From the NCBI GenBank assembly GCA_034440575.1, contig JAOTOL010001659.1, forward strand, positions 3,962,001-4,026,000: DNA of 64,000 bases, given 5' to 3'. Source of the stretch: Imbricaverruca yamaguchii (Eukaryota > Arthropoda > Thecostraca > Neoverrucidae). This document shows, one piece after another, positions 1 to 58,726 of this stretch (its first letter is position 1; each line of letters opens with the position of its first letter). The translations under genes and the position numbers were made by a program. Below the pieces are notes generated by a model. The model was not told the origin of the DNA. It was given only the letters and a program-made list of their open reading frames with translations, and searched no databases.

Positions 1-1212
1 GTGGGTGTGGAATTACTCCCCCCGACGCCAGGTGCATCCATGAGCACAGATCTCGTTTCAGCTACTTCGAGGTCAACTCGCTTCGTTTTTTTTTCTGGCA
101 ATCGTTATGGCAACTTGCACAAACCCAGAACACAAACATGCAGATCGGTAGGCAAGTACTAGAAGTCGTAAACACTTAGAGATGCAAATCGGCAGGCAGG
201 TGTGGAACAAGTCGGTAGACAAGTACGGGAAGTCGTAAACAGCTTGTGCGATGCATGAGCTCGACAATCTGACCTGGGAGTGGAGTTATTCAGCGATGCG
301 TTTATAGGCGGACACCAAGGCGTACGTAAGCTGCACGTACCCGATGAGCTTACAAATATTGGGAGTTTTGACACATGGTCTTTGTTGAAGTTGTATGAAC
401 AAGACAAATCGTCTTGACATCTATCCCCGGGTTTGTTGGTTTTGGTGCTTTCACCATTGCTTTTCAAGATGGCAGAAATAATGTGATGTTATTGGCAATA
501 GTACAAGAGGTACGGTTCAGACAGATCAGATCAGATCACATCAGGCACGAGATGACCCACTGACGCAACTATAAATACGGGTAGCATCGTTGGAAAGCAA
601 CAGTAGCCCAAAGACCATATCACAGCTGAATTATTTTATTTAATAGTACTGAGGTCAGTCAAGTTCTTCCTATATATATTGACCTATGACAAAGTACATG
701 ATCTATAAAGCGCTTGTCCTTGGGAGTAACTTAAACCATGTGATCGTGTACGTCTCTTCAATATTATTCTCCAAACAATTCAAACACGCATTCGTCGACT
801 GCGCATATTGCGGGGCCCATGTTAAAGCGGTCCATGCAGGTCACGTAAGGTGCGACGAAGTAAGTTGATCGAATTCCTCAGATTATCTTTGAAGTAGAAA
901 ATATATTTAGAAGGCAGACCGAAATGATGAGTTCTGCAAATGACTCGGATCTGACTTCTGCCAATATGCCTATCAACAGACCCTGCTCCCTGGTCGCTGT
1001 ATGACCGACACAGTCGATGCGCCCGTAAGCACTAATAACCAACTTGCAACCTGGTCGTCGTCTGCTTTGTGTCAGGCGGCAGAAAGGTTGTCTCTGCTGG
1101 CTCTTGACTCACCTATAGGTTGGGGCTCTTGATGTGCTTTTCCGCTCTCCCTACCGTACCATTTATTGGCGTACGACACTCGGTTTAGCGCTGACAATTA
1201 TCATATTATTTG
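1..1212. other. No gene recognised
   Basis: Short open frames on both strands show no familiar domain, splice pattern or codon bias. The stretch may be intron of the neuroligin gene or flanking DNA, because the gene's 5' exons are not visible. Confidence 0.5.
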
Positions 1213-2434
1213 GATCAGGCTGATGTAGCATATCTTGACTTTAGTAAGGCCTTTGACAAGGTACCCCATAAACGGTTAATGATACAGCTTCAGTCCCATG
1301 GTATTGCAGGTAGCATCTTAAAATGGATAGAGTTGTGGCTTTCAGATAGACAGCAAAGAGTGATGCTAAATGGTACAAAGTCATCATGGCAAAATGTTCT
1401 TAGTGGAGTCCCCCAGGGGTCAGTACTAGGGCCATTACTGTTCATTATTTTGGAAATAACATTGAAAGTGGCCTAAGCAGTAAAGTTTTGAAATTTGCGG
1501 ATGATTTGAAGGTCTTTAGGGCAATAACAGGTCAGGATGAGCATATCTCGCTGCAAAAAGACTCAGACGAACTTGTGAAGTGGTCCGAAGAATGGCAAAT
1601 TAAATTTAATTTTGATAAGTGCAAAATCATGCATGTAGGTAAGCAGCATATGAAGGCTCCATACTTGATGGATGACCAAGTCCTATCAGTGACTCAACAG
1701 GAGAAGGATTTAGGTGTTATTCTAAACACAAAACTGGGGGCATCAGAACAGACCAAGGAAGCCAGGAAGAAGGCACTGAGAATGCTCGGGGCAATAAATA
1801 GGAATGTATCATACAGAAATGAGGAAGTGATCAGGAAGCTTTACTGTGCATACGTCAGGCCACATTTGGAATACTGCATCCAAGCTTGGTCTCCTAGCTA
1901 TGAAAAAGATTGTTGGCTTTTAGAGAGAGTACAAAAGAGGGCTACACAAATGGTTAATGGCATAAGCAACCTGGCATATGAGGAAAGATTGAAGAAATTG
2001 AACATTTTTTCACTTAGATATAGAAGGCTGAGAGGAGATCTCATCGAGGTCTTTAAATTTGTCAATGGTCTGAATAGGGGATACCTTGGGGAAATCTTTG
2101 AATTTAACAGAAATGATGCAATTAGAGGTCATAAATTCAAAATTAAAGTTAACCACAGCAGAACAAGGTTAAGGCAAACTTTCTTCACCAACAGGGTAGT
2201 GGAACACTGGAACCAGCTGCCAGAAAACATCGTCAGTAGCAGCACATTGAACATCTTTAAAAACAGCATAGACAATCATTATAAGAATAGAGGGCTTGCT
2301 TTTCAGTATTGCAGGGAGGGCTGATTGACAGATTTGGTGGGCAACTGGTTCAGTGTACAGAGTGCAACCAAGAAGGGCCCTTGTGGCTCATAGTTGCACT
2401 AATCTTTTATGTCTTTATGTTTATGTCTTTATGG
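1213..2434 (+). mobile_element. LINE retrotransposon fragment, copy 1 (reverse transcriptase to 3' end), broken
   Basis: This is the 3' part of a non-LTR retrotransposon of the jockey/CR1 superfamily. The reverse transcriptase would copy element RNA at a nicked target. Reading starts inside the domain with QADVAYLDFSKAFDKVPH, which carries the motif A aspartate. GVPQGSVLGPLLF follows near 1410-1443, and FADD, the catalytic motif C, lies near 1494-1505. Between LLFII and FADD a small deletion removes the usual FINDI segment and shifts the frame, so the open frame is split at about 1476/1488. The thumb and C-terminal part run in one frame to the stop at 2322-2324, with the family-typical YCAYVRPHLEYCIQAWSP block. 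The 3' tail has short ATGTCTTT-type repeats (2406-2434), as in LINEs with microsatellite tails. The endonuclease domain and 5' end are absent. It cannot encode an active enzyme as it stands. Confidence 0.9.
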
Positions 2435-2655
2435 AGGTGTAGTAAGGTGTTTATCTGATTATCGTTGGGGGTCTAGGAGCCCAGAGGGGGGGGGGCTGCA
2501 GCTAAATAATTTGGCGTTACCTTACTGTCTGAAGGTAGGGCCTGCAGTTTTGCAAATCTAGCCATGGGTGGCCACCGTGATTGCAGATTTGTATGCTAGT
2601 GTATGTTCTCTAGTGTTGAGATCAGTGCCGTCTCATGCCATCTGTACGATATTTA
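2435..2655. repeat. Spacer of the LINE tandem array, repeated at 3513-3738
   Basis: The 221 bases between copies 1 and 2 recur almost unchanged between copies 2 and 3 (3513-3738). The main visible difference is the length of a poly-G run. The spacer is therefore part of the duplicated unit of about 1.08 kb and not independent sequence. Confidence 0.85.
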
Positions 2656-3512
2656 TGTGAAGTGGTCCAGCAGAATGGCAAATGAAATTTAATTTCGATA
2701 AGTGCAAAATCATGCATGTAAGCAGCATATGAAGGCTCCATACTTGATGGGTGGCCAAGTGCTATCAGTGACTCAACAGGAGAAAGATTTAGGTGTTATT
2801 CTAAGCACAAAATTGGGACACCAGAACAGACCAAGGAAGCCAGGAAGAAGGCACTGAAAATGCTTAGGGCAATAAATAGGAATGTATCATACAGAAGTGA
2901 GGAAGTGATCAGGAAGCTTTACTGTGCATACGTCAGGCCACATTTGGAATACTGCATCCAAGCTTGGTCTCCTAGCTATGAAAAAGATTGTTGGCTTTTA
3001 GAGAGAGTACAAAAGAGGGCTACACAAATGGTTAATGGCATAAGCAACCTGGCATATGAGGAAAGATTGAAGAAATTGAACATTTTTTCACTTAGATATA
3101 GAAGGCTGAGAGGAGATCTCATCGAGGTCTTTAAATTTGTCAATGGTCTGAATAGGGGATACCTTGGGGAAATCTTTGAATTTAACAGAAATGATGAAAT
3201 TAGAGGTCATAAATTCAAAATTAAAGTTAACCACAGCAGAACAAGGTTAAGGCAAACTTTCTTCACCAACAGGGTAGTGGAACACTGGAACCAGCTGCCA
3301 GAAGACATCGTCAGTAGCAGCACATTGAACATCTTTAAAAACAGCATAGACAATCATTATAAGAATAGAGGGCTTGCTTTTCAGTATTGCAGGGAGGGCT
3401 GATTGACAGATTTGGTGGGCAACTGGTTCAGTGTACAGAGTCCAACCAAGAAGGGCCCTTGTGGCTCATAGTTGCACTAATCTTTTATGTCTTTATGTTT
3501 ATGTCTTTATGG
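2656..3512 (+). mobile_element. LINE fragment, copy 2 (5'-truncated, hybrid of copies 1 and 3)
   Basis: This holds only the C-terminal part of the same reverse transcriptase ORF and its tail. The open frame 2860-3402 gives 180 residues almost identical to the end of copy 1. The part before 2896 instead shares its indels and substitutions with copy 3. One example is the loss of bases after the CATGTA near 2716, and another is the changed sequence near 2816-2824. From 2907 on it matches copy 1. This pattern marks it as a recombinant. No catalytic motifs remain, so it is non-functional. Confidence 0.88.
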
Positions 3513-3738
3513 AGGTGTAGTAAGGTGTTTATCTGATTATCGTTGGGGGTCTAGGAGCCCATAGGCGGGGGGGGGGGGCTGCAGCTAAATAATTTGGCGT
3601 TACCTTACTGTCTGAAGGTAGGGCCTGCAGTTTTGCAAATCTAGCCATGGGTGGCCACCGTGATTGCAGATTTGTATGCTAGTGTATGTTCTCTAGTGTT
3701 GAGATCAGTGCCGTCTCATGCCATCTGTACGATATTTA

Positions 3739-4588
3739 TGTGAAGTGGTCCAGCAGAATGGCAAATGAAATTTAATTTCGATAAGTGCAAAATCATGCAT
3801 GTAAGCAGCATATGAAGGCTCCATACTTGATGGGTGGCCAAGTGCTATCAGTGACTCAACAGGAGAAAGATTTAGGTGTTATTCTAAGCACAAAATTGGG
3901 ACACCAGAACAGACCAAGGAAGCCAGGAAGAAGGCACTGAAAATGCTTAGGGCAATAAATAGGAATGTATCATACAGAAGTGAGGAAGTCATCAGGAAGC
4001 TTTACTGTGCATATGTCAGGCCACATTTGGAATACTGCATCCAAGCATGGTCTCATAGCTATGAAAAAGATTGTTGGCTTTTAGAGAGAGTACAAAAGAG
4101 GGCTACAAAAATGGTTAATGGTTTAAGCAATCTGGCATATGAGGAATGATTGAAGAAATTGAATATGTTTTCACTTAGATATAGAAGGCTGAGAGGAGAT
4201 CTCATCGAGATCTTTAAATTTGTCCATGGTCAGGAGAAGGGATATCTTGGGGAAATGTTTGAATTTAACAGAAATGATGCAATTAGAGGTCATCAACTCA
4301 GAAGTAAAGTTAACCACAGCAGAACAAGGTTACGACAGTCTTTCTTCACCAACAGGGTAGTAGAACACTGGGACCAGCTGACAGAAACCATCGTAAGTAG
4401 CAGCACATTGAACGTCTTTAAAAACAGCATTGACAATCATTATAAGAATAGTGGGCTTGCTTTTCAGTATTACAGGGAGGTCTGATCGACGACGGATTTG
4501 GTGGGCAACTGGTTGAGTGTACAGAGTGCAACCAAAGAGGGACCTTGTGGCTCATAGTTCCACTAATCTTGTATGTCTTTATTTATGT
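3739..4588 (+). mobile_element. LINE fragment, copy 3 (5'-truncated, most diverged)
   Basis: This is the third copy of the same LINE 3' segment. It starts at the same truncation point as copy 2 and has a TGA at 4147-4149 that splits the frame (3943-4149 and 4150-4485). Its coding part has more substitutions than copy 2, so it is the older of the two truncated copies. The tail is shorter and altered (4570-4588). Confidence 0.85.
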
Positions 4589-4704: not shown

Positions 4705-7998
<3,294 letters not shown>

Positions 7999-11798: not shown

Positions 11799-12422
11799 GC
11801 CAGTGGTGACCTTGTCTACTGGGTGAGACTGCCAGGACCCGCTACCCGGTCATGGTGTGACTGGTGGTGACCTTGTCTGCAGGAGAGACTACCAGGACCC
11901 GCTACCCGGCCATGGTGTGACCGGTGGTGACCTTGTCTGCAGGAGAGACTACCAGGACCCGCTACCCGACCATGGTGTGACCGGTAGTGGCCTTGTCTGC
12001 AGGAGAGACTACCAGGACCCGCTACCCGGTCATGGTGTGACCGGTAGTGGCCTTGTCTGCAGGAGAGACTACCAGGACCCGCTACCCGACCATGGTGTGA
12101 CCGGTAGTGGCCTTGTCTGCAGGAGAGACTACCAGGACCCGCTACCCGGTCATGGTGTGACCGGTAGTGACCTTGTCTGCAGGAGAGACTACCAGGACCC
12201 GCTACCCGGTCATGGTGTGACCGGTGGTGACCTTGTCTGCAGGGGAGACTGCCAGGACCCACTACCCGGTCATGGTGTGACCGGTAGTGACCTTGTCTGC
12301 AGGAGAGACGGCCAGGACCCGCTACCCGGTCATGGTGTGACCGGTGATGACCTTGTCTGCAGGGGAGACTGCCAGGACCCGCTACCCGGTCATGATATGA
12401 CCGTTGGTGACCTTCTCTACAG
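11799..12422 (+). repeat. 60-bp minisatellite made of the neuroligin 3' splice site and exon start
   Basis: Ten copies stand upstream of the real exon in exact 60-base register. Nine have an intact CTGCAG-type acceptor, with AG at 11881, 11941, 12001, 12061, 12121, 12181, 12241, 12301 and 12361. The most distal copy (11821) lost its AG. Each unit repeats the pyrimidine-rich intron end, the AG, about 35 bases of the coding exon start and some 20 bases not found in the exon. In the exon's reading phase each copy runs ten codons and then ATG GTG TGA (ATG ATA TGA in the nearest). The real exon has TAC at that place (12458-12460). The two copies at 12241 and 12361 are closest to the real exon in sequence. 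Because 60 is a multiple of three, long open frames cross the array on both strands, but they are not genes. Confidence 0.93.
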
Positions 12423-12572
12423 GGGAGACTGCCAGGACCCGCTACCCGGTCATGGTGTACGTACACGGGGAGTCGTTCAGCTACGGCACCGGCAACGCCT
12501 TCGACGGCTCCGTGCTAGCCAGCTTCGGTGCTGTGGTCGTGGTGACCCTCAACTACCGGCTCGGCGTGCTAG
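12423..12572 (+). CDS. Nlg: Neuroligin-like protein, first visible exon (partial gene)
   Basis: Neuroligins are postsynaptic adhesion proteins that bind neurexins through an inactive cholinesterase-like domain. This 150-base exon gives [19 protein letters not shown], then DGSVLASFG and [13 protein letters not shown]. These are the beta-strand and loop region that in esterases holds the HGG oxyanion site, here HGE. The acceptor AG is 12421-12422 after CCTTCTCTAC. The donor is GTCAGTG at 12573. The exon enters after codon base 1 (two bases complete a split codon) and leaves in phase 1, which joins exactly to 37872. Both ends are embedded in tandem copies of their own splice junctions. Residues before ETARTRYP (signal peptide and start of the domain) are not in the window as far as I can see. 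Confidence 0.93.
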
Positions 12573-12885
12573 GTCAGTGACATCGATGACCTTCAACTAC
12601 CGGCTCGGCGTGCAGGTCAGTGACGAGTATGATCCCTAACTACCAACTCTGAGCGTAGGTCAGTGACAAGTATGACACTCAACTATTTGCTCGGCGTGCA
12701 TGTAGTGACAGGTATGACACTCATCTACCGGCCCAGCGTGCAGGTCAGTGACATGTATGACACTCAATCACCGGCCCGGCGTGCAGGGCAGTGACATGCA
12801 TGACCCTCAACTACCGGCCCGGCGCAAAGGTCAGTGCTATGTATGACCCTGAGCCACCGGCTTGGCATGCAAGGTCAGTGATGAG
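12545..12885 (+). repeat. 43-bp minisatellite made of the neuroligin exon end and 5' splice site
   Basis: Downstream of the real donor (GT at 12573), the last ~25 exon bases (AACTACCGGCTCGGCGTG) plus GTCAGTGAC recur seven times at 42-43-base spacing. Intact GT occurs at 12616, 12659, 12744, 12830 and 12873. The copies near 12701 and 12787 have lost it. Copies are more diverged than those of the upstream 60-bp array, so this array looks older. Reading through the real donor meets GGT CAG TGA at once (TGA at 12578-12580), so use of any later donor would truncate the protein. Confidence 0.92.
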
Positions 12886-13679
12886 TGTGACCATATTTGA
12901 CGGTGTTGTAGACAACGAGAGACGGGGTGAGGACAGTGACAGAACTGCCAGCAGATGTGGAGATATCGAGAGGTCTAACGGCAGCACGGAACACCCATTG
13001 CACCAAGTATGGCATCCATGCCAACAGGTTGTGTAGCTGCGTGCCGTTGACCGGCCAAATCGGCCGCCGGCACATCCGAACCGGCTCACTGGTTCCCGTT
13101 TATTCACTTTCAGGAACGTATCAGACCAGCGTCTTGGCAGATTGGTGTTGCTTGTAGCACCCGAAGTTCAACCTTCTTAGGAACACCCATGGCCAATGGA
13201 AGCACATGGCACATCACATGGCACATGGCACATCACACTGGGGTCTGCCGTCACACTTCGGTATGCTTGCACACAGATACACACACGAATGCATTTCGCT
13301 GAAGCTCACGGTAAATAGCATTGCATAACGAATAAACACCAGGCAGTGTACGTGAACAGCGAAAAGCTTTGCGTCGTGACGATCGTCGCAGATCCATGGA
13401 AAATACTAAACACTCGTCGCAGAGCTACGACACACACTAAATACGCGACGAAATCTGGTCGGGGGACTGGGAACTCAAGCTCTGCACGTGGTGAATATGT
13501 GGTCTCGTATGAGTATTTCTTTCCAATTATTGATGTTCTACCAGCTGCATGGCAGTCGTTCACTGCGTAATTTAGAAGAAGGAAGCAAGTAAGCAATTGC
13601 TTTTAGGAAAATGTAGCCCGGATGAATAGTGACGTTCACAACTAATTTAATTTTAATGAGGCAACGGATTGCACTGATG
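12886..13679. other. Intron sequence, no gene recognised
   Basis: Start of the 25.3-kb intron. It holds only a short CACATGGCACAT repeat near 13200-13240 and short open frames without recognisable content. Confidence 0.5.
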
Positions 13680-37540: not shown

Positions 37541-37846
37541 TGACGTCACACGCCCAGCTTGATATGATTGACGTCGCACAGCTGACGTGACGTATCCACG
37601 CAACACACGTGACGTCATATGTCCGACGTCACGCGTCTGACGCCACACATCCGACATGTTCTTTCTGACTCCACATATGCGACGAGTCTGACGTCTCGCG
37701 CCTGACACGATCCATCTGACGTCATACGCCTGACCTCATATGTCTGATATCACACATCTGACGTCACAAATCTGACGCCACATGCATGACGTCACACGCC
37801 TGACATGATTCGTCTGACGTCACACGTGTGACGTCTGTCGCATCTG
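37541..37846. repeat. TGACGTCA-rich minisatellite just upstream of exon 37872
   Basis: An irregular unit close to CTGACGTCACACGT (14-17 bp) repeats about 18 times. Six copies carry the perfect TGACGTCA palindrome (near 37541, 37610, 37718, 37759, 37788 and 37815), which is the cAMP response element core. The array ends about 25 bases before the exon, inside the intron's 3' splice region. It resembles the array at 55.0 kb. Confidence 0.85.
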
Positions 37847-37871: not shown

Positions 37872-38066
37872 GCTTCCTCAACTCGAACTTCGAGCCGGTG
37901 CGCTCGGTGGCCAACTACGGCCTGCTGGACATCGTGGCGGCGCTCGAGTTCATCCGGCTGACGGTGGGCGCGTTCGGCGGCGACCCGGCCAACGTGACCG
38001 TGTTCGGCCACGGCGCCGGCGCCGCCTGCATCAACTTCCTGATGACGTCCGCGTCGGCGCCGCTCG
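37872..38066 (+). CDS. Nlg: Neuroligin-like protein, second visible exon
   Basis: The 195-base exon continues GFLNSNFEPVRSVANYGLLD, then the helix and nucleophile-elbow region with GGDPANVTVFGHGAGAACIN. In active esterases this loop is GxSxG. Here GHGAG has Gly where the catalytic serine would be, as in neuroligins, so the domain is a binding module and not an enzyme. NVT is a possible N-glycosylation site. The acceptor AG is 37870-37871 and the donor GTGAGAT at 38067. It enters completing a Gly codon split after base 1 and leaves in phase 1, matching its neighbours. GC at third codon positions is very high, unlike the surrounding intron. Confidence 0.95.
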
Positions 38067-38678: not shown

Positions 38679-39313
38679 GCCTGCTCTTCCACCGCGTCAT
38701 CCTGATGAGCGGCTCGTCCCTGGCGCCGTGGGCGCTGCTCAGCAGCCCGCTGAACGCCACGCACCAGCTGGCGCGCAGCACCGGCTGTCCGCCGTCGCAG
38801 ACCGACTTCCTGCCGTGCGTGCGCGGCAAGCCGCTCGCCGCGCTGCTGGCGCCACCTATCGCCGGCCCGCGCTTCCTGCCGCTGTTCGGGCCGTCGCTAG
38901 ATGGCATTGTCATCAGCGACGAGCTGTTCACCAGCCGCAGCGCGTACGTGCACCGGCTGGCGTCGTACTCGCTGCTGGCCGGCGTGACGGCCGACGACGC
39001 CGACTTCCAGCTGAGCGACCGGCAGCTGGCCGACGGCGTGACGGCCGGCGAGCGCGACCGCGTGCTGCGCACCTACCTGCAGAACCACTACAGCTACCAC
39101 CTGAACGAGCTGCTGTCGGTGGTGCGCCACGACTACACCGACTGGACGCGCGGCCAGCACCAGGCGCGCGCGCTGCGCGACCAGCTGGTGCACGCGCTGA
39201 GCGACGCGCAGTACGTGGCGCCCGTCACACACACGGCCAGCCTGTTCCCCGACGACCAGCACACCTACTTCTACGTGTTCAGCGCGCGCGGCACGTCGCC
39301 GGGCGCCGTCGAG
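38679..39313 (+). CDS. Nlg: Neuroligin-like protein, third visible exon (main part of the domain)
   Basis: The 635-base exon encodes about 212 residues of the cholinesterase-like domain. It opens LLFHRVILMSGSSLAPWALL. Two cysteines follow in STGCPPSQTDFLPCVRGK, probably the conserved disulphide loop, then FGPSLDGIVISDELF and the LLAGVTADDADFQL segment. HYSYHLNELLSVVRHDYTDW and ALSDAQYVAPVTHTASLF come next. The order and spacing match arthropod neuroligins. NAT is a possible glycosylation site. The fly protein has a long insert after the FGPS(I/V)DG segment, and this protein has only a short loop there. The acceptor AG is 38677-38678. The donor GTGAGCG at 39314 follows GTC GAG, ending in phase 0. 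A reversed SINE starts 47 bases after the donor. Confidence 0.96.
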
Positions 39314-54317: not shown

Positions 54318-54680
54318 ACAATACACCGTGTGCCGCGGCAGCTAAGACATGCACTACACCGTGTGTTGTGGCCGCTAAGACATGTACTACACCGTGTGTT
54401 GTGGCAGCTAAGACATGTACTACACCGTGTGTTGTGGCAGCTAAGACATGCACTACACCGTGTGTTGTGGCAGCTAAGACATGTACTACACCGTGTGTTG
54501 TGGCAGCTAAGACATGTATTACCCCATGCTACCTGGCAGCTAAGACATGTACTACACCGTGTGTTGTGGCAGCTAAGACATGTATTACCCCATGCTACGT
54601 GGCAGCTAAGACATGTACTACACCGTGTGTTGTGGCAGCTAAGACATGCACTACACCGTGTGCCGTGGCAGCTGACAGTG
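54318..54680. repeat. 33-bp minisatellite, eleven copies
   Basis: GCAGCTAAGACATGTACTAC followed by ACCGTGTGTTGTG in exact register, with a TATTACCCCATGCTAC variant at every other position near 54517-54600. It ends about 75 bases before the exon at 54755. The open frames (11-residue repeat) are artefacts. Confidence 0.96.
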
Positions 54681-54754: not shown

Positions 54755-54903
54755 GCCGGCCAGGGGTACGGCGCCGAGCTGCCGTACGTGTTCGGCGCGC
54801 CGCTGGTGTCGCACATCGGCCACTTCACGCGCCAGTGGTCGGCCGCCGACCGGGCCCGCTCCGAGGCCATCATCACCTACTGGACCAACTTCGCCAAGTC
54901 CGG
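54755..54903 (+). CDS. Nlg: Neuroligin-like protein, fourth visible exon
   Basis: The 149-base exon gives AGQGYGAELPYVFGAPLVSH, then an IGHFT segment, then SEAIITYWTNFAKSG. This is the segment where esterases carry the catalytic histidine in HG(D/E)E. Here the place is GYGAE, so the histidine is also lost. With the missing serine in exon 37872-38066 this supports a pure adhesion role. The acceptor is GCCGCAG ending at 54754 and the donor GTATGG at 54904. It enters in phase 0 and leaves in phase 2, matching 57165. Minisatellites lie close on both sides: the 33-bp array upstream and the GACGTC array 120 bases downstream. Confidence 0.94.
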
Positions 54904-57164: not shown

Positions 57165-57274
57165 GGATCCGAACAAGCCCAAGGAGGTGTTCTTTGGAGT
57201 CAGCGGCGGACAGCGATACAAGAAGGTTGTGTGGAGTCCATATGAGCACTTGCACAAGAAATACTTATCGCTTG
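57165..57274 (+). CDS. Nlg: Neuroligin-like protein, fifth visible exon
   Basis: The 110-base exon encodes DPNKPKEVFFGVSGGQRYKK and then VVWSPYEHLHKKYLSL. With the previous exon it forms NFAKSGDPN, the family-typical junction. The acceptor is ATCTCCCACAG ending at 57164 and the donor GTAAGAT at 57275. One base completes the Gly codon at the start and one base is left at the end (phase 1), joining 57800 to make an Asp codon. Its GC content is lower than that of the other exons. Confidence 0.94.
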
Positions 57275-57544
57275 GTAAGATGCGATGTCTCGCACTTTTT
57301 CAACGCTGAATTAGCCATCGATTTAACTAATGAACTCATGGTTGTCCAAGTTACGTGATGTCTGAGAAAGATGTGATCAAAAGGATCGCTTAAATTGTGT
57401 TCCGTACGTAAGAATCAAAATGCAATTATTTTCGTCGCATTCATGCATGGGCATTTCTGTTGCATTCGGTGCATCACCTTAACTCTGATGCAAACTTGTT
57501 CCAGTGTAGAATGGCACCGATGTGAATTGGTTCTGATTTTAACA

Positions 57545-57799: not shown

Positions 57800-58267
57800 A
57801 CACGGCGCCACGCATGCAGGGCCACTACCGGTCGCAGCGCGTGGCACTCTGGCTCACCCTGGTGCCGGAGATTCACCGGCGCGGCAACACCGGCCTGCCG
57901 GGCCTAGCGCACCACGCGTTCGACAGCGGGCCGCACCCGCACCTGTACCTGGGCTCGGTGCGCTCGGTGGCGGCCACCTGGCGGCCACTGCCGGCGGCCA
58001 CCACCGCCGCCAGCGACACCAACGCCAGCGCCGTGCTGGACGGCAGCGTGAGCGCCTCTGGCGGCGCGACCGCAGCGCCACCTGGCGCCGCAGATGGCGC
58101 TGCGGTCGACAGCGCCTTCTCGTCGTACAGCACGGCGCTGAGCGTGACGGTGGCGATCGGCTGCTCGCTGCTGGTGCTCAACATCCTCATCCTGGCCGGC
58201 GTCTACTACCAGCGCCAGAAGGGTCGCGTCGAGTCGCGCAAGCGCGCCGTCGAGAACGGGCGCGTGT

Positions 58268-58305
<38 letters not shown>

Positions 58306-58623
58306 GGCTTCGGCTGCTCGCGCTCGGGCAGCACCGCGTCCGGCGACACGTGCTCGCTCAAGCTGGACGTGCGGCAGACGACGCTGCCGCCGGCGCAGTT
58401 CGCCGACGCGGCGCCGCCGTCGCTGCTGGACGGCGTGTGCTCGCGCTCGGTGCCGCAGCCGCCGCCGCCGCCGCGCGCCGGCCGGCCGCCGGACGGCGGC
58501 GGCGCGCCGCGCCGGCACGCCTGCGTCACGGCCACCCTGCCGCCGAACTTGGGCCGGCACGCGCTGCGGCCGGCCGCCAGCCGGTGCGGCTCGCAGGAGC
58601 AGCTGTCCGAACTGCGCGTGTAG
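57800..58623 (+). CDS. Nlg: Neuroligin-like protein, last exon (membrane helix and cytoplasmic tail)
   Basis: 274 codons including the TAG at 58621-58623. The start, APRMQGHYRSQRVALWLTLV, ends the cholinesterase-like domain. A low-complexity Ala/Thr/Ser/Gly linker follows, with NAS as a possible glycan site. The transmembrane helix is SVTVAIGCSLLVLNILILAG (58141-58200), very typical of neuroligins, then YYQRQKGR as the positively charged stop-transfer. The tail has a run of 13 glycines (58270-58308), a proline-rich stretch near 58455-58485 and ends SELRV. The last residues fit a class II PDZ ligand (hydrophobic at -2 and 0), whereas vertebrate neuroligins end TTRV (class I). The acceptor is GTGCGGCAG ending at 57799. 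Two other + frames stay partly open because of the high GC and are shadows. Confidence 0.96.
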
Positions 58624-58726
58624 TGGCGGCGTCGGCCGCGTGGACCAGGGCGTCAGGGCGCCGCCGACCGCGGTGGGCGCGCGCGCGCGCGACGGCACTG
58701 GCAGCCGCTGTCGAGTGGAGGCTGTT

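Follow-up and report, generated by a model that had tools for sequence, protein, structure and literature searches.

Several AGs near one exon are familiar from NAGNAG and other tandem acceptors. The ladder of acceptors described here, located in a neuroligin gene of the barnacle Imbricaverruca yamaguchii, differs from them in its 60-base spacing, its minisatellite origin and the lack of a productive alternative. It is closer to the mirages of amphioxus, whose original description, on Adh, is said to have appeared in Nucleic Acids Research in 2002. Two papers on amphioxus describe mirages as minisatellites that lie across an exon-intron boundary and reportedly leave splicing undisturbed, and the genes affected are Adh3, the globins BflGb6 and BflGb9, TnC and PGBD5 (PMC3087553, PMC3902484). 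In PGBD5 the repeats have units of 60 and 108 bases and lie at exons 3 and 4, and TnC is given there as a further case (PMC3902484). The same papers describe that copies at the edge of a cluster escape homogenisation and that the arrays vary in length between alleles and are somatically unstable (PMC3087553, PMC3902484), and such arrays have been proposed as a route to new introns (PMC3087553).

We compared the barnacle locus with these cases. In its structure, the locus matches the amphioxus mirages. As in amphioxus, where 5′ or 3′ edges are affected, the tandem unit spans the exon-intron boundary, and in the barnacle 36 and 30 exon bases lie within the two arrays. The units of 60 and 43 bases can be set beside the 10-72 bases given for amphioxus Adh3, 150-160 for the globins and 60 and 108 for PGBD5 in the passages cited above. 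The splice dinucleotide is likewise kept in many copies, in the barnacle as AG in nine of the ten extra acceptors and as GT in six of the seven extra donors (five as AG/GTCAGT), and the cluster-edge copies are less homogenised in the barnacle acceptor array, as reported for amphioxus. The differences are that the barnacle is not a cephalochordate, that both edges of the same exon are involved and that the gene is neuroligin. Normal splicing and length instability are features reported for the amphioxus mirages.

Two other systems share part of these features. In human segmental duplications, internal tandem repeats located at exon-intron boundaries were discussed as a source of new introns (PMC2812944). 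They are also minisatellite-type repeats at the boundary, but the passages of that paper present them as variable between paralogs and partly transcribed inside exons, whereas the outer barnacle copies would be intronic and frame-breaking. In earthworm metallothionein, the introns contain minisatellites, and exon 4 is present in additional copies (PMC12783039). Minisatellites within the gene and exon copies not reaching the transcript make this case similar, but the copies are of the whole exon and the passages of the paper do not state boundary-spanning repeats. No arthropod mirage was found among the matches listed from the literature on such arrays and on barnacle repeats, which were open-licence papers judged from titles, abstract openings and passages. 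The first-pass annotation of this DNA knew of no ten-step array of such a kind in a synaptic gene, but the kind itself is described in amphioxus (PMC3087553, PMC3902484). What is new is a mirage in an arthropod, and two of them on one exon.

The neuroligin gene

Using barnacle proteins, we placed six neuroligin exons on the forward strand of the window, i.e. the whole stretch of 64,000 bases analysed. Exon E_a (12423-12572) has 150 bases and is of phase 1 at both ends. The boundaries of E_b (37872-38066), E_c (38679-39313) and E_d (54755-54903) were read with the help of the barnacle protein matches, E_c matches the carboxylesterase-type domain (COesterase, PF00135, E 4.4e-23), and the limits of E_e (57166-57279) are approximate, being those of the matched stretch. 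The last exon, E_f (57808-58624), runs to the stop codon and its start is approximate. It contains a hydrophobic stretch conserved in the Amphibalanus amphitrite protein P0001, which may be the single membrane-spanning segment of neuroligin near the C terminus. The third codon positions in E_a, E_b and E_c are G or C in 96 % of 327 codons, far above the overall composition of the window.

The identity of the gene, already proposed for exon 12423-12572 in the first-pass annotation, is well supported. The 49 codons of E_a match solved neuroligins with a best E-value of 4.6e-15 (neuroligin 4). Among the best 120 of 914 matches, the protein of the joined window exons was most similar to the neuroligin-2-like protein of A. 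amphitrite (69 %) and to Pollicipes pollicipes (63 %), followed by an unnamed record (48 %) and decapods (42-44 %), and, with the exception of P0003, a longer model from Pollicipes, each of the best named matches was a neuroligin or neuroligin-like protein. Across exons E_a to E_c, the identity of the window protein was 80.1 % to A. amphitrite P0001 and 75.4 % to P. pollicipes P0002, with 73.0 % between P0001 and P0002. By these values the window would come from a barnacle distinct from both species, and the preference for barnacles led us to reject amphioxus, which we had first considered as the source.

An 18-residue stretch of the E_a protein is matched in the barnacle neuroligins P0001 and P0006. 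As it is E_a and not the array that matches other barnacle neuroligins, the exon is the source of the repeat. In P0006, also from A. amphitrite, an upstream exon is joined to the same GETAR junction as in E_a, which speaks for an acceptor at 12422 and for phase 1. The barnacle protein search (E up to 0.05) found no exons for the beginning of the protein in the 64,000-base window, so the intron preceding E_a would be longer than 12.4 kb if those exons lie upstream. At the position where P0006 has the upstream exon, P0001 (neuroligin-2-like isoform X2) has MRPVSRTSQA immediately preceding the GETAR junction. It may reflect an alternative start, or the end of a retained intron, at the same junction in another barnacle.

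The acceptor-side and donor-side arrays

The upstream edge of E_a lies in a minisatellite at 11803-12458 on the forward strand, in which TRF found a 60-base unit in 10.9 copies with 93 % matches. The array contains the upstream intron end and the first 36 bases of the exon. A minisatellite built from the intron-exon junction, with about 35 coding bases in the unit, had been noticed in the first-pass annotation at 11821-12422; the array is real and the number of coding bases agrees, but its limits are wider. BLASTN with the exon as query recovered ten upstream copies of its first 36 bases with E-values from 3e-14 to 5e-7, which excludes chance similarity of the acceptor copies. The AGs also stand in the exact 60-base register claimed for them. 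They end at 11882+60n (n = 0 to 9) in 10 out of 10 copies, the final one, at 12422, being the acceptor of the exon itself. We take the AG at 12421-12422 to be the real acceptor, as both the open reading frame and P0006 of A. amphitrite indicate, and call the nine upstream AGs (n = 0 to 8, forward strand, 11881-12362) decoy acceptors. The outermost copy (11822-11858, forward strand) has the junction without the AG, and its exonic portion of 34 bases (11825-11858) agrees with the exon at 34/34 positions.

Ungapped identity among copies 0-7 was 0.88-1.00, with no difference between copies 2 and 4 in the 60 bases compared, and the exon's own copy was 0.82-0.90 identical to copies 0-7. The value of 0.65-0.70 for the outermost copy is understated, as the comparison is ungapped and this copy has a one-base shift on its intron side. 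Altogether, the inner copies are most alike and the exon-adjoining copies less so.

The unit does contain the intron end with its AG as first described, but this end is not pyrimidine-rich: the tract is weak, with 9/16 pyrimidines in each of the nine upstream copies and 11/16 at the real acceptor, the best of the ten. The other neuroligin acceptors examined have 9/16 (E_b), 10/16 (E_c) and 9/16 (E_d), so by pyrimidine count the decoy acceptors are no worse than acceptors elsewhere in the gene. None of the ten acceptors, whether decoy or real, has a perfect branch-site pentamer (YTNAY) in the 15-50 bases upstream, and thus branch sites, by this simple pattern, do not discriminate the real acceptor from the decoys. 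Decoys 12002, 12062 and 12122 have lost one of the two TGAC words that precede the real site.

The downstream edge of the same exon lies in a second minisatellite, at 12543-12892 on the forward strand, which the first-pass annotation had missed. TRF gave a 43-base unit in 8.1 copies with 77 % matches, composed of the last 30 exon bases, the donor and the start of the downstream intron. The 84 bases at 12459-12542 are the portion of the exon present in neither array. BLASTN of the exon at 1e-3 recovered only two donor copies, because the remaining ones are more diverged. Among eight copies there are seven GT donor candidates on the forward strand, including the putative real one at 12573-12574 (TAG/GTCAGT). 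The decoy donors, between 12616 and 12875, comprise AG/GTCAGT at 12616, 12659, 12744, 12830 and 12874 and a weak GT at 12702, and at 12787 GG replaces GT. Scored with a hand-entered human matrix, four of the six decoy donors are higher than the real donor, one is equal and one far lower. By this matrix, the use of the first donor is therefore not explained by donor sequence alone.

Reading frames and explanations

The ten acceptors were paired with the seven GT donors and each pair was read through E_b and E_c, assuming, in line with the barnacle protein, that the upstream exon contributes a single base to the split codon. A single pair out of 70, 12422 with 12573, is open through both exons. 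All nine upstream acceptors combined with the real donor run into an in-frame TGA at codon 13, and the real acceptor combined with any of the six downstream donors gives a stop at codon 53 (TGA at 12578). Thus, the ladder cannot yield useful protein isoforms, and the ladder of near-identical acceptors put forward at first survives as a series of similar sites, not of usable isoforms. A possible microexon within the unit (AG to ATG/GTGTGA) is present in eight of the ten acceptor copies; it has 32 bases, would shift the frame and would leave an intron of about 28 bases up to the next AG. We also considered RNA structure concealing the decoys and rejected it. A stem of -10 kcal/mol or lower is predicted in seven of ten junction segments of the acceptor array, but the segment before the real acceptor is among them, and folding energies were unremarkable relative to shuffles (z -2.0 for two units, -1.4 over the whole array, +0.9 for the real site and +0.7 for the donor side).

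The locus is very probably a double mirage, in which two minisatellites have grown from the two edges of one neuroligin exon and the outer copies are neutral passengers. One short tandem duplication would have captured the upstream intron end together with 36 bases from the start of the exon, and another, separate duplication the donor together with the final 30 exon bases. Slippage or unequal exchange may then have multiplied both units. The outer copies would since have been carried along as passengers, presumably neutral. Only the exon bounded by 12422 and 12573 preserves the reading frame in this sequence, so its use would be obligatory, and any other site would lead to a premature stop and presumably to decay of the transcript. 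Most simply, the locus can be read as a neutral mirage, in which the outer sites would be either ignored or used in mis-spliced transcripts that are destroyed.

It is also conceivable, though improbable, that the outer sites form a poison-splicing device, giving transcripts with premature stops, so that the copy number tunes the amount of functional neuroligin mRNA. The 69 out of 70 pairs that reach a stop would be expected of it, and so would the retention of nine upstream AGs and five AG/GTCAGT decoy donors. However, 48 of the 60 columns are invariant among the nine upstream acceptor copies, and hence the AG is not singled out for conservation and shows no better keeping than the rest. Moreover, GT was lost in one donor copy and has a poor context in another, AG was lost in the outermost acceptor copy, and five of the nine decoy acceptors have an additional AG 15 bases ahead of the site.

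An assembly artefact, in which one or a few true copies were inflated by misassembly, seems to us quite unlikely. Tandem arrays are hard to assemble, and in amphioxus the copy number of the PGBD5 repeats differs between two assemblies, although the passages of that paper report that resequencing confirmed the repeats (PMC3902484). In our case, however, the copies bear their own substitutions, with copies 2 and 4 being the only identical ones (60 bases) among the nine upstream, and the two arrays differ in unit and strongly in divergence (93 % against 77 % matches).

We give similarly little credit to a targeted process by which minisatellites are seeded preferentially at splice junctions rather than placed there by accident. 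TRF arrays with a period of at least 10 occupy 13054 of the 64000 bases (20.4 %) in 40 blocks, so the overlap of some exon edge is not in itself surprising. Eleven neuroligin exon edges were tested (the stop end of E_f was excluded; the E_e edges and the E_f start are approximate), and the two located in arrays match the expectation from circular shifts (mean 2.24; at least two in 67 % of shifts, P 0.67). On the side of targeting, both edges of one exon are affected, and edges are closer to arrays than under shift (median distance 121 bases against 300), but not significantly (P 0.16). Both edges of a 150-base exon fall in two different arrays in 377 of 63851 placements (0.6 %), in a test chosen after seeing the case. 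One such edge can be accounted for by random minisatellite birth, and a pair of them on the same exon is unusual but not decisive. In a region one fifth of which is tandem array, the arrays probably arose independently of the splice sites, with the placement count and the edge distances leaving some room for targeting.

Neither do the array units point to a common seed. TGAC/TGACC, which we had spotted by eye in several arrays, was unsupported over the 38 array units, and no junction-like word stood out across them. The units came from 38 of the 40 blocks, after low-complexity blocks 4742-4929 and 58452-58512 were filtered out, and two of them represent one unit in copies of one element and are hence not independent. 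The words passing the family-wise test were CACAC (17/38, with 3.98 expected for length-matched non-array sequence), CGGTAC (5/38) and CCACAC (8/38).

Arrays 37686-37835 and 54322-54673 end 37 and 82 bases ahead of the acceptors of E_b and E_d, respectively. The unit of the former contains CTGAC, which fits a branch-site pattern, and the latter has GGCAG every 33 bases. Elsewhere in the window, 1195-4485 holds remains of a non-LTR-like reverse transcriptase (RVT_1, E 4.9e-12 for 1195-1473), the downstream part of which is tandemly repeated. Its 300-base stretches at 1731, 2809 and 3892 are spaced by 1078 and 1083 bases, the second and third being 97 % and 94 % identical to the first.

A functional series of alternative acceptors adding 20-residue blocks to neuroligin, suggested by a unit of 60 bases, a multiple of three, and AGs in register, has practically no chance of being correct, as the TGA at codon 13 with all nine upstream acceptors refutes isoforms in 20-residue steps on the present sequence unless the stops are removed by editing or an allelic difference.

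Implications of a probable double mirage

The furthest-reaching version of these ideas, to which we assign only a slight chance, would have barnacles carry mirages genome-wide and the two-sided neuroligin ladder act as a copy-number-tuned decay sink, with minisatellite alleles setting the synaptic dosage of neuroligin. Under the double mirage as we prefer it, the locus suggests that amphioxus is not alone in having minisatellites made from splice junctions. Amphioxus is extreme in nucleotide diversity. Extreme diversity has likewise been reported for the barnacle Balanus improvisus, and whether high polymorphism and mirages go together is a question that can now be asked. The neuroligin exon, with ten similar acceptors, six AG/GTCAGT donors and one working pairing in 70, would offer a natural test case for the choice of exon ends. 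The same exon may serve to test the proposal, made for amphioxus, that new introns can originate from such arrays (PMC3087553).
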